Positions 28,223 to 31,127 of a DNA stretch of 64,000 bases are shown one piece after another. The notes beneath the pieces were generated by a model. It made no database searches. It was not told the DNA's origin and saw nothing but the letters and a program-made list of their open reading frames with translations. This DNA comes from Rhodococcus sp. ARC_M5 (lineage in GTDB: Bacteria; Actinomycetota; Actinomycetes; Mycobacteriales; Mycobacteriaceae). Within the stretch, counting starts at the first letter, position 1; every line of letters begins with the position of its first letter. The DNA is taken from positions 62,001 to 126,000 of the forward strand of contig NZ_JALGQE010000009.1 of assembly GCF_022810405.1 (NCBI RefSeq), written 5' to 3'. The position numbers and the translations under genes were made by a program.

Positions 28223-28840
28223 TCAGGCTACTGGCCCGTCGAGCGGCAACCGGCGGCCCAGGACTGCGAAGGGGCGTCGGTCCCCGGCGAACGTGAAGTC
28301 CCGCAGCACGTCCTGGAAGCCGAGCCGCCGGTACAGCCGCCAGGCCCGGTTGTCCTCCTGCGCGACTTCCGGTGTGGACAACATCACGTTGGCGGCGGAG
28401 ACGCCGTCGAGCAGTCGAGTGCACAGTCGGCCACCGAGGCCGTGTCCCTGAGCGCTCGGACGCACGTGCAACTCGGTGAGCTCGAAGTAGTCCTCGAGGG
28501 TGGCCTCGACGCTGCGGGGAGAGTGCCCCGTGCGCCTCAATCCGTCGCGTACCTGCTGATGCCACCACTGATGCGCCGCGCCGTGGTAGCCGTATGCGAG
28601 GGCGACCAGCGAGTCCGGCTGCATCGGGTCGGCGTTCGGAAGCAGTGCACCTACTGCACGCCAACCCGGCCGATGCAGATGTTCGCTCCACATGGGGGCC
28701 CTGCTCTGCTCGGTTCCACGTGGATAGCCCATGGCCTCGACGTAGATGGACAGTGCCTCGAACAGCCGCTGGCGGAATTCCGGGGGCGTCAGATCGACCA
28801 GGTACGGCGTTGTCTGCGCGTCGGTGGCGACTGTTCTCAA
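28223..28840 (-). CDS. GNAT-family N-acetyltransferase (Rv2170-like)
   Basis: A 205-residue acetyltransferase with the acetyl-CoA loop in RPSAQGHGLGGRLC (about residues 126-139) and the C-terminal block EDNRAWRLYRRLGFQD. The order of motifs and the start region YLVDLTPPEFRQRL match mycobacterial Rv2170, reported to acetylate isocitrate dehydrogenase. The only start covering this region is TTG 28840, with AAAGG directly before it, so initiation may be weak or slightly different. It heads the operon with crtO, cruF, lppM and the glycosyltransferase. Its promoter shares a 196-bp region with the SOS-boxed gene. Confidence 0.82.
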   Translation of the reverse strand: MRTVATDAQTTPYLVDLTPPEFRQRLFEALSIYVEAMGYPRGTEQSRAPMWSEHLHRPGWRAVGALLPNADPMQPDSLVALAYGYHGAAHQWWHQQVRDGLRRTGHSPRSVEATLEDYFELTELHVRPSAQGHGLGGRLCTRLLDGVSAANVMLSTPEVAQEDNRAWRLYRRLGFQDVLRDFTFAGDRRPFAVLGRRLPLDGPVA

Positions 28841-28872
28841 CCTTTCTTCGGAAACTTGTCGGTGGGCACAGC

Positions 28873-28901
28873 TATATTGAATGTGTCGAACGGGTGTTCG
28901 A
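28873..28901 (+). promoter_or_regulatory. LexA (SOS) box overlapping a -10 promoter region
   Basis: TCGAACGGGTGTTCGA at 28886-28901 is a perfect match to the mycobacterial/actinobacterial LexA site TCGAAC-N4-GTTCGA. TATATT at 28873-28878 is a likely -10 for the rightward gene, so LexA would sit on the transcript start and repress it. The leftward GNAT-crt operon starts 46 bp away and could also be affected. The remainder of the leader up to 29036 shows nothing else. Confidence 0.8.
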
Positions 28902-29035
28902 CGATCGGGGCCGAGTGCGCCGGTGGCTTCGGCTCGATCGTCGAGTCGGATTCTCCGGAGTTCGACTGTAAGGCTTCGTCACGGTTCCGGCCGCGTCAGG
29001 TACGCGTCGGAGATTCGAACTGGAGGTGTTCGAGT

Positions 29036-29491
29036 ATGACGATCACGAAGGCATTCGATGCCGAAGTGCGGTCGCCGGTGTCGCGTCAGGCGCGAGTCCT
29101 GCTCGGTCGAGCCGATGCACTGCTGTCCGAGTCCATCGGGGAGAGCGACGCCGGAGATCGGTTTCTGGGGAGCTATGCCGCGGCGCTGAAGGGTGCGGCA
29201 GCTGTGCTGGCGTCGCTGCCCAACTCGATCGGAGCGCGTCCGCGCTCGCGCAGCGCATGGGTGCTGATGGCAAAGGCGGCACCGGATCTCGCCGTCTGGG
29301 CCGATTATTTCGCGTCCTTCTCTGCCACCCGCGCTGCTGTGGAGGCCGGTGCGTCGAGCACGATCGCCGAGCTCGATGCCGACGATTTCTATCGACATGT
29401 CAGTCGTTTTCTGAACTCGGTCGAGGATCGACTCGGCGGGCAGCCGCGATTCGCGTCCGTCGACCCGATGACGGCACCCTTGTCTGCATAG
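29036..29491 (+). CDS. SAV_6107-type HEPN-domain protein, SOS-controlled
   Basis: A 151-residue all-helical cytosolic protein that looks like the SAV_6107 family of HEPN domains. The helices run through RQARVLLGRADALL (about residues 17-30), FLGSYAAALKGAAAVLA, a conserved RSRSAWVLMAKAAPDLAVWA and DADDFYRHVSRFLNSVE. The only His is in YRHVSRF, and no arginine lies 4-6 residues before it, so the RNase motif RX4-6H of HEPN toxins is absent. GGAGGT stands 8 nt before the ATG. It lies behind a LexA box and ends in a strong terminator. It may act in the DNA damage response as a binding or scaffold protein; this is inference. Confidence 0.72.
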   Translation: MTITKAFDAEVRSPVSRQARVLLGRADALLSESIGESDAGDRFLGSYAAALKGAAAVLASLPNSIGARPRSRSAWVLMAKAAPDLAVWADYFASFSATRAAVEAGASSTIAELDADDFYRHVSRFLNSVEDRLGGQPRFASVDPMTAPLSA

Positions 29492-29542
29492 CTGAAGAAG
29501 CAGGTCTTCGGTCGACAAATGCCACGTCATACGGTGTTCACG

Positions 29543-29582
29543 CGAAGTTTTCGGGACGTGCGTCTCGAAAACTTCGTTGTTT
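29543..29582 (+). terminator. Intrinsic terminator after the HEPN gene
   Basis: A 16-bp stem with one G-U pair (29543-29558 with 29561-29576) is followed by TTGTTT, 52 bp past the stop codon. Confidence 0.8.
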
Positions 29583-29718: not shown

Positions 29719-30156
29719 GTGCCACTCTCCGAGCACGAGCAGCGCATGCTCGATCAGATCGAGAGCGCTCTCTACGCCGAGGATCCCAAATTCGCCTCTC
29801 ATGTGAGGGGCGGTCGCGTTCGCGCGGCGTCGAGCAGGAGGCGCTTTCAGGCTGCCGCACTGTTCGCTGTGGGACTCGTGTTGCTCGTCGCCGGTGTTGC
29901 ATTGTCGACGAACAGTCTGGCTTTTCTCGTCGTCAGCCTCATCGGCTTTTTGTTCATGTTCGGTGCCGGGGCACTGTTCCTGTTCGGCGGCTCCAACAAG
30001 GGAGCCGCAGCGTCGCAGGACGATGGCAGCTCGGTCAACGATGCTGCCGAAACGTCCGGGCGTAGTTCCGGGCAGAAGTCGAAGGGTGGCCGCAAAGGCG
30101 GCAGCTTCAGCTCTCGGATGGAAGATCGGTTCCGCAAGAGGTTCGAGCAGGACTGA
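29719..30156 (+). CDS. DUF3040 membrane protein (Rv2169c-like)
   Basis: A 145-residue inner membrane protein. The DUF3040 opening PLSEHEQRMLDQIESAL with EDPKFASHVR covers residues 2-33. Two adjacent membrane segments follow (about 45-64 and 68-87), then a disordered Ser/Lys-rich tail ending in RMEDRFRKRFEQD. The GTG start has GGGGGAGG just before it. TATCAT at 29631-29636 may be its -10. It is placed between the HEPN gene and mraZ as in mycobacteria. The function of the family is unknown; proximity to the division cluster is conserved. Confidence 0.85.
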   Translation: MPLSEHEQRMLDQIESALYAEDPKFASHVRGGRVRAASSRRRFQAAALFAVGLVLLVAGVALSTNSLAFLVVSLIGFLFMFGAGALFLFGGSNKGAAASQDDGSSVNDAAETSGRSSGQKSKGGRKGGSFSSRMEDRFRKRFEQD

Positions 30157-30695: not shown

Positions 30696-31127
30696 GTGTT
30701 TCTCGGTACCTACACGCCGAAGCTCGACGACAAAGGTCGACTCACGTTGCCGGCCAAGTTTCGGGACGCGCTTGCAGGAGGTGTCATGGTGAGCAAGGGG
30801 CAGGATTTCAGCCTTGCTGTCTACACCGCGGCAGACTTCGCCGAGCGCTCACGGAAGTTGACGGCAGCTTCGCGTGCCAACCCCAAAGCCCGTGCCTACG
30901 TTCGCCAGTTCTTCTCGGGAACCGACGAACAGCGACCGGACGGACAGGGTCGGATCACCATCAGTGCCGAGCATCGCCGTTACGCGGGGCTCGAACGCAA
31001 CTGTGTGGTGATCGGTTCGATGGATTTCATCGAGATCTGGAACGACGAAGCGTGGGCCCGCTACTCCGCTGAGAACGAGCAGGATTTCTCCGACGCTTTC
31101 GACGAGTCCCTCGGAGGGATCTTGTAG
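30696..31127 (+). CDS. mraZ: Transcriptional regulator MraZ
   Basis: A 143-residue AbrB-like DNA-binding protein, typical in length, that autoregulates the division and cell wall cluster. The two duplicated halves open with [16 protein letters not shown] (about residues 9-24) and [15 protein letters not shown] (about 88-102). Each carries the DxxGR-type turn that contacts DNA. The GTG start has GGAGGT 5 nt upstream. The MraZ box array ends 30 bp before it. First gene of the dcw cluster. Confidence 0.95.

Follow-up and report, generated by a model that had tools for sequence, protein, structure and literature searches.

Why should a gene beside the cell-division genes of a Rhodococcus carry a promoter of the DNA-damage type, and what would its product do there? 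The question arises from a stretch of 64,000 nucleotides of Rhodococcus sp. ARC_M5 (hereafter the window), in which a gene for a HEPN-like protein lies between the genes for a GNAT acetyltransferase and a DUF3040 protein, close to the start of the division and cell wall (dcw) cluster. Its promoter carries, 7 bp apart, the signatures of LexA and PafBC, the two DNA-damage regulators of actinobacteria. Relatives of the gene stand in operons with translesion polymerases, a setting in which the protein may serve as an accessory of translesion synthesis.

Two DNA-damage signatures at one promoter

The LexA (SOS) box TCGAACGGGTGTTCGA (28886..28901, no strand assigned) matches TCGAAC-N4-GTTCGA with 0 mismatches, is the sole exact match in the window and sits at the expected transcription start. 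An exact LexA site behind a -10-like TATATT had been reported in a first-pass annotation of this DNA; both elements were recovered, with the TATATT at 28873..28878 (+ strand) and 7 bases between it and the box. With up to two mismatches allowed, the window contains 8 SOS matches against 5.3 expected, a count reached by 18 of 100 shuffles. Since this excess is weak, only the exact site at 28886-28901 stands out. The whole genome (5.40 Mb) holds seven exact LexA palindromes and none of the reversed pattern.

The first-pass annotation overlooked that the same TATATT is the -10 element of a PafBC promoter, as it did the link to polymerases described below. Positions 28856-28878 read TTGTCGGTG-GGCACAGC-TATATT, where TTGTCGGTG is the -26 element (28856..28864, + strand) and GGCACAGC the 8-nt spacer. 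This is an exact match to tTGTCRgtg-8nt-TannnT, the consensus of RecA-independent (RecA-NDp) promoters (PMC5656591), a class activated by PafBC (PMC6789036, PMC8223512); here and below, cited papers are drawn on through parts of their text. The motif occurs exactly ten times in the genome and its reversed pattern not at all. Genes were scored at seven of the other exact sites and comprised UvrB, RNase H, two DUF222 proteins, one HNH protein, an SbcC-like AAA protein and one protein without a family; the site lies near or inside the gene start for RNase H and 1.2 kb ahead of the SbcC-like gene. Genes at the SOS and PafBC sites of this genome were called with a home-made GC-frame caller, which also served for the g29 genomes and for loci L117, L210, L214, L193, L195, L196, L290-L319, L320 and L321 below. 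PafA, PafB and PafC are encoded in tandem, as a Pup ligase, a WYL/WCX protein and an HTH_PafC/WYL/WCX protein. A rough calculation (10 x 7 x 100 bp / 5.4 Mb) puts the chance of a PafBC motif and an SOS box meeting anywhere in the genome at about 0.001. The conserved box over the promoter marks the gene as a predicted member of the LexA regulon, and the motif, together with pafBC in the genome, as one of the PafBC regulon.

Conservation of the promoter and turnover of its regulators

The gene was present in single copy in 37 of 37 genomes of the same genus, with protein identity down to 54%. In the 30 loci fetched from these genomes the SOS box was exact in every case, and the PafBC motif was exact in 28 and had one mismatch in the other two. 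A sample of the family comprised 401 genomes from 31 genera, and the gene was present in 346 of the genomes and in 30 of the genera. We then considered 108 family loci (L005-L064, L068-L084, L258 and L260-L289, with L065-L067 dropped as repeats of L035-L037), which are related and not independent. Within 420 nt upstream, the best SOS match was exact in 59 loci, had one mismatch in 20 and two in 25, hence at most one mismatch in 79/108 and at most two in 104/108, and four loci missed. A PafBC match with at most one mismatch, taken anywhere in the same 420 nt, was found in 83/108, although in L084 and L273 the best match was not beside the SOS box. In dinucleotide shuffles the corresponding rates were 0.14% (SOS, at most one mismatch), 3.1% (SOS, at most two) and 0.14% (PafBC, at most one). 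Because the box is kept across the genus and the family, chance is excluded as its origin. Conservation in relatives had been named in the first-pass annotation as a check on the box, and the SOS-type control proposed there gains support from this result. Genus and family names of the coded genomes are ones we infer, except where the record gave a name.

Outside the closest relatives the two signatures part company. An SOS box without a neighbouring PafBC motif was seen at loci of g6, g8, g16, g18 and Tsukamurella, and in the Corynebacterium-like g3 loci the SOS box is weaker (1-2 mismatches, 6/6) and the PafBC motif absent. At the 66 Streptomyces loci, TTGTCRGTG-N8-xAnnnT was exact in 62 (0/660 shuffles). 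The SOS match was weaker, with at most one mismatch in 1, two in 32 and three or more in 33, and the two-mismatch sites often read CCGAAC-N4-GATCGA and lay upstream of the PafBC site. As judged from these motifs, the type of regulator appears to turn over between genera while signs of damage control persist.

The regulation itself has a counterpart in the literature. In Corynebacterium glutamicum, cg2381 belongs to the LexA regulon and is induced by ciprofloxacin (M 3.86; divS 5.38), whereas the nearby mraZ, cg2378, falls (-1.13) (PMC5055667). C. glutamicum carries PF18726, the family of the window protein, and cg2381 lies three gene numbers from mraZ; in g3 the gene adjoins GNAT, and also DUF3040 or mraZ where these were observed. 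Given the presence of PF18726 in C. glutamicum and the g3 synteny, cg2381 is very probably the same gene, an assignment that follows gene number and synteny and not sequence. Like the window gene, it is an SOS-regulated conserved hypothetical near mraZ; the weaker SOS box and missing PafBC motif of the g3 loci set it apart. The earlier suggestion of an undescribed system was therefore too strong as far as regulation is concerned. A second parallel is mycobacterial recA, which also combines both damage regulators (PafBC at P1, LexA at P2). There they act on two promoters (PMC11804915), whereas the window has one promoter, in which the LexA box directly follows the PafBC element.

Several observations on the promoter elements stand on their own. 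At almost all of the loci L037-L064 (mostly g22, Nocardia-like), 40-41 nt separate the PafBC start from the SOS start, compared with 30; the extra spacing is about one helical turn, and the SOS box is weaker, for example TCGAATACCTGTTCGG. The Streptomyces-like genomes G705, G709 and G423 contain 58, 49 and 55 exact TTGTCRGTG-N8-NAnnnT sites, respectively, against 1, 1 and 3 of the reversed pattern. At 12 of 30 Streptomyces-like sites inspected (L290-L319), no gene began on the same strand within 400 nt. Ten genes at such sites were scored, and eight could be placed in a family, namely ung, dinB, a gyrase/topoisomerase IV A-type gene, ruvC, a DnaQ-type exonuclease, two helicases and cas3. The -10 element is often CAnnAT. 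For S. venezuelae, an initial search had pointed to a lack of conservation of the PafBC motif (PMC9380542), and RecA-NDp promoters are described as extending to other Actinobacteria (PMC8223512). In the window genome, three of the other six exact SOS boxes (L226, L227, L230) lie directly ahead of DUF222-type genes with near-identical N-termini, one of which was checked as DUF222+HNH; the RecA-dependent genes of M. tuberculosis include five putative HNH endonucleases (PMC8151990).

A HEPN protein without the canonical RNase motif

The gene (29036..29491, + strand) encodes a protein of 151 residues (P0001) that matches PF18726, HEPN_SAV_6107, with 98.2 bits (cut-off 27.2) over profile positions 4-98 of 98. 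A confident structure model is HEPN-like, that is, a helical bundle of the HEPN superfamily, and no solved sequence relative was found at E values up to 1. The HEPN-like product of the first-pass annotation is thus upheld, as is the absence of the RX4-6H RNase motif: R99 is invariant, and A104/G105 occupy the position of the histidine. A separate R42-X4-H47 occurs in relatives, and the window protein has R-X4-Y there (Tyr47). The 2013 survey of HEPN domains described 'HEPN-M (SAV_6107)' as actinobacterial and without the RNase motif, listing no fusions (PMC3710099). The window protein falls in this same family by the curated model; in the part of the survey drawn on, no function, promoter or operon context is given, and the present analysis contributes the LexA and PafBC signatures and the setting in translesion operons.

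The gene does not resemble a mobile one. No PF18726 match was found among 50,697 phage records, and PHROGs gave nothing below E 0.39. Two matches in a plasmid collection were an 11.85-Mb, chromosome-size Nonomuraea record and a 360-kb Tsukamurella record with mraZ and rsmH. As a defence system the best PADLOC match was weak (21 bits, E 6e-5, candidate model PDC-M05B).

Relatives of the gene stand in translesion-polymerase operons

PF18726 matches were found in 48 of 396 genomes of a phylum sample, 40 of them above the cut-off. Outside the family and Streptomyces we assembled 23 strong loci, namely the 13 named non-Streptomyces loci among the best 80 of at least 560 matches and ten from the phylum sample (at least 52 bits). 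In 18 of these 23 a DnaE2-like polymerase follows HEPN on the same strand, and in 21 a translesion polymerase of any kind does; the two without are L168 and L211, and the sequence of L211 extends no more than 1.1 kb downstream. A search of 1,400 nt upstream, which had no shuffle control of its own, gave an SOS box within one mismatch in 22/23. Kineosporia sp. L117 has an exact SOS box followed by DUF6504 - HEPN - DnaE2-like polymerase - methyltransferase - DinB - DUF3040. In L210 and L214, from another family of the same order, the arrangement is HEPN - ImuA' - ImuB (IMS) - DnaE2 - methyltransferase - phosphodiesterase - DinB, then DUF3040, and a GNAT gene of the window type lies upstream on the opposite strand. 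ImuA', DnaE2, DinB and DUF6504 were assigned in these three loci by family models (ImuA' in L214: NF058630, 6.7e-53; DnaE2 in L210: NF004225, 1520 bits). The phosphodiesterase of L210 (14875-16062) is of the type I phosphodiesterase / nucleotide pyrophosphatase family (PF01663).

Intermediate arrangements occur within the family. A Y-family polymerase is present in 2 of the 108 family loci, L268 (g11) and L276 (g17). In the corresponding wider stretches L320 (g11) and L321 (g17), carotenoid-type genes are followed by GNAT - exact SOS box - HEPN - methyltransferase - DinB-like - DUF3040 - mraZ - mraW, with a few further genes ahead of mraZ and the same flanks as the window slot. One slot therefore has three contents: the HEPN gene by itself, HEPN-methyltransferase-DinB, or the complete ImuA'-ImuB-DnaE2 cassette. 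Descent with loss of the polymerase genes from the slot is the simplest reading. A damage-boxed operon with DnaE2-like, ImuA'/ImuB or DinB genes is found in relatives and not at the window locus, where no polymerase gene lies between GNAT, HEPN and DUF3040; the dnaE2 of this genome (1562 bits) is on a different contig, with a 1-mismatch SOS box about 30 bp ahead of it.

A possible accessory of translesion synthesis

From this gene context we give an even chance to the HEPN protein being a damage-induced accessory of translesion synthesis, retained beside dcw by descent. The evidence consists of motifs, conservation, gene context and fold similarity. As a unit of its own, the gene would respond to DNA damage through two switches, LexA and PafBC; their binding, induction in this organism and any part that the protein takes in translesion synthesis are what we infer. 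LexA on 28886-28901 would cover the start site until RecA filaments trigger its self-cleavage, and PafBC, activated by single-stranded DNA, would bring RNA polymerase to the -26/-10 motif. The protein, with its HEPN fold, would most likely act as a non-catalytic accessory, an adaptor or regulator, of DnaE2-type and Y-family polymerases. In many Actinobacteria its gene accompanies those for DUF6504, a DnaE2-like polymerase, a methyltransferase and DinB, or stands ahead of ImuA'-ImuB-DnaE2. In the Rhodococcus-like lineage the polymerase genes would have been lost from the slot, while HEPN stayed by DUF3040 and dcw and acted in trans. On this view the position beside dcw is inherited from a larger cluster, where HEPN is the first gene or a member of a translesion-synthesis operon.

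More tentatively, and below even confidence, we suggest that Actinobacteria domesticated a HEPN protein, which became a so far unrecognised subunit of the machinery for error-prone synthesis by DnaE2, ImuB and DinB, or its regulator. The ancestral SOS cluster may have been DUF6504-HEPN-DnaE2-methyltransferase-DinB-DUF3040 by dcw, and the protein may still serve the mutasome in trans in Rhodococcus, Nocardia and Corynebacterium relatives, which retain LexA sites and in many cases PafBC sites as well.

The DnaE2 mutasome is a source of damage-induced mutations in Actinobacteria. Its composition has been called elusive (PMC10421592), and a widespread HEPN protein with damage boxes, encoded with such polymerases, is a directly testable candidate component. 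If true, a toxin-type fold would have been recruited to DNA-damage tolerance, and a repair gene by the division cluster would be explained through inheritance of the slot and not by a division role. HEPN shares an SOS-boxed operon with ImuA', ImuB, DnaE2 or DnaE2-like polymerases and DinB in several families, which resembles the ImuA'-ImuB-DnaE2 mutasome and the DnaE2B group. HEPN is not among the components described in the parts of PMC12926913 and PMC10421592 drawn on, and the window slot is without polymerases, with dnaE2 elsewhere. In the open-access literature searched, HEPN did not occur in the papers that combine mutasome, ImuB and actinobacteria, a link between the family and the mutasome was not found, and DUF6504 was not mentioned. 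PafBC and HEPN came together in a single paper, a review of toxin-antitoxin systems, and SAV_6107 and HEPN likewise in one. Regulation of the gene is thus partly known, from cg2381, and the translesion-accessory role is new to that literature.

Several findings weigh against this proposal. Four of the 108 family loci have no recognisable SOS box, and three of them also lack a PafBC match; the four are L278 and L279 (g4), L284 (g5) and L283 (g7), of which L283 retains a PafBC site with a CA-type -10. In 106 of the 108 there is no space for a polymerase between HEPN and DUF3040, which starts 0.4-0.83 kb past the start of the HEPN match. The flanks fetched for 69 Streptomyces-type loci (60 with at least 4 kb downstream) contained no DnaE2 or DinB match. 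Eleven weak loci from deep-branching metagenome-assembled genomes (MAGs), L193-L203, were left out of the 23. Two of them gave no HEPN match by profile, and the nine that did, some over the Pfam cut-off, had no polymerase and no SOS box within two mismatches. The g29 genomes do without HEPN altogether, and if g29 is Mycobacterium, as we suppose, the mutasome works there without it. The class of the polymerases also calls for caution. All eight scored polymerases of DUF6504-type operons are C-family (over the TIGR00594 cut-off) and fall below the curated cut-offs of both DnaE1 and DnaE2. The DnaE2 model, which also matches other DnaE polymerases, scores higher in L113, L120, L179, L204, L205 and L207, and the DnaE1 model slightly higher in L117 and L118. 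Among the scored polymerases of HEPN loci, only that of L210 passes the DnaE2 cut-off. The DUF6504-type polymerases may correspond to the DnaE2B group, for which PMC12926913 describes a standalone ImuB-C; a comparison of DUF6504 with the C-terminal end of ImuB, made to see whether DUF6504 is that ImuB-C, gave a probability of 12.9% (E 0.0022), which decides neither way. The family intermediates thus add support to the translesion reading, and the polymerase cut-offs add caution.

A methyltransferase is almost as constant beside HEPN as the polymerases are, which also tells against the proposal. It would suit a module in which HEPN acts with a class I methyltransferase on RNA, protein or a small molecule during damage, the polymerases being near through co-regulation only. 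Streptomyces-type loci are ordered HEPN - methyltransferase - DUF3040, with the methyltransferase within 2 kb downstream of HEPN in 66/69 and DUF3040 present in 66/69, and HEPN-methyltransferase-DinB without DnaE2 occurs in L139, L206, L209, L320 and L321. Against this, DUF3040 lies so close in 106/108 family loci (within 0.83 kb) that a methyltransferase does not fit beside HEPN, and 7 of 18 DnaE2-linked loci have no methyltransferase match, two of them on short contigs. We regard such a module as unlikely.

The promoter follows HEPN, not its division-side neighbours

Proximity to dcw had led to the suggestion of an SOS division or repair factor. HEPN could act as an SOS checkpoint that delays septation via DUF3040/SCO2097 or dcw: DUF3040 lies within 0.83 kb in 106/108 family loci and also accompanies HEPN in the larger clusters, SCO2097 belongs to an MreB-associated complex of Streptomyces (PMC4255298), and in C. 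glutamicum ciprofloxacin moves cg2381 up and mraZ down (PMC5055667). The g29 genomes (probably Mycobacterium) speak to this directly. In 15 of the 15 checked, DUF3040 follows GNAT by 205-336 nt, and mraZ was found in 14, but none of the 15 has a HEPN match at this slot, and the best matches there have 2-4 mismatches for SOS and 3-5 for PafBC. The promoter therefore tracks HEPN and not DUF3040 or mraZ, because g29 has the GNAT-DUF3040 pair with neither HEPN nor promoter. A division factor deduced from proximity is rejected on these genomes, which retain DUF3040 without gene or promoter, and a division role for the HEPN gene is unlikely; the repair half of the suggestion fits the genomic context. 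A terminator-like hairpin also separates HEPN from DUF3040 in the window (29542..29577, + strand), and elsewhere several kb of translesion genes intervene. The hairpin had been called a strong terminator, a label that is upheld in part. It is real (-24.2 kcal/mol, z -4.6), but its T-tract is weak and interrupted, and similar hairpins are limited to close relatives and not genus-wide. The DUF3040 gene is outside the damage-induced unit.

The HEPN fold is best known as an RNase toxin, but an RNase-type toxin or growth-arrest effector that cleaves RNA under severe damage via an alternative active site is a poor prospect, given Tyr47 in the window protein, the absent RX4-6H, no antitoxin-type neighbour, a single copy in 37/37 same-genus genomes, the weak PADLOC match (21 bits) and no phage match. 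The window gene shares its fold with MNT-HEPN toxin-antitoxin pairs and differs from them in lacking both the canonical motif and an adjoining nucleotidyltransferase, its neighbours being GNAT and DUF3040.

Flanking genes and a possible ancestry

The left flank of the slot is the GNAT acetyltransferase gene (28223..28840, - strand), conserved in 108/108 family and 15/15 g29 loci. The right flank is the gene for the DUF3040 / SCO2097-family protein (29719..30156, + strand), conserved in 106/108 and 15/15. Further downstream, mraZ marks the start of the dcw cluster (30696..31127, + strand) and was named by gene order, compared with an annotated Tsukamurella locus.

In the deep-branching actinobacterial MAGs L193, L195 and L196, the weak PF18726 match is preceded by a small gene whose products form one protein cluster in all three; in L193 it is a nucleotidyltransferase, and the arrangement resembles an MNT-HEPN pair. 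Such pairs hint at a toxin-antitoxin ancestry of the family.
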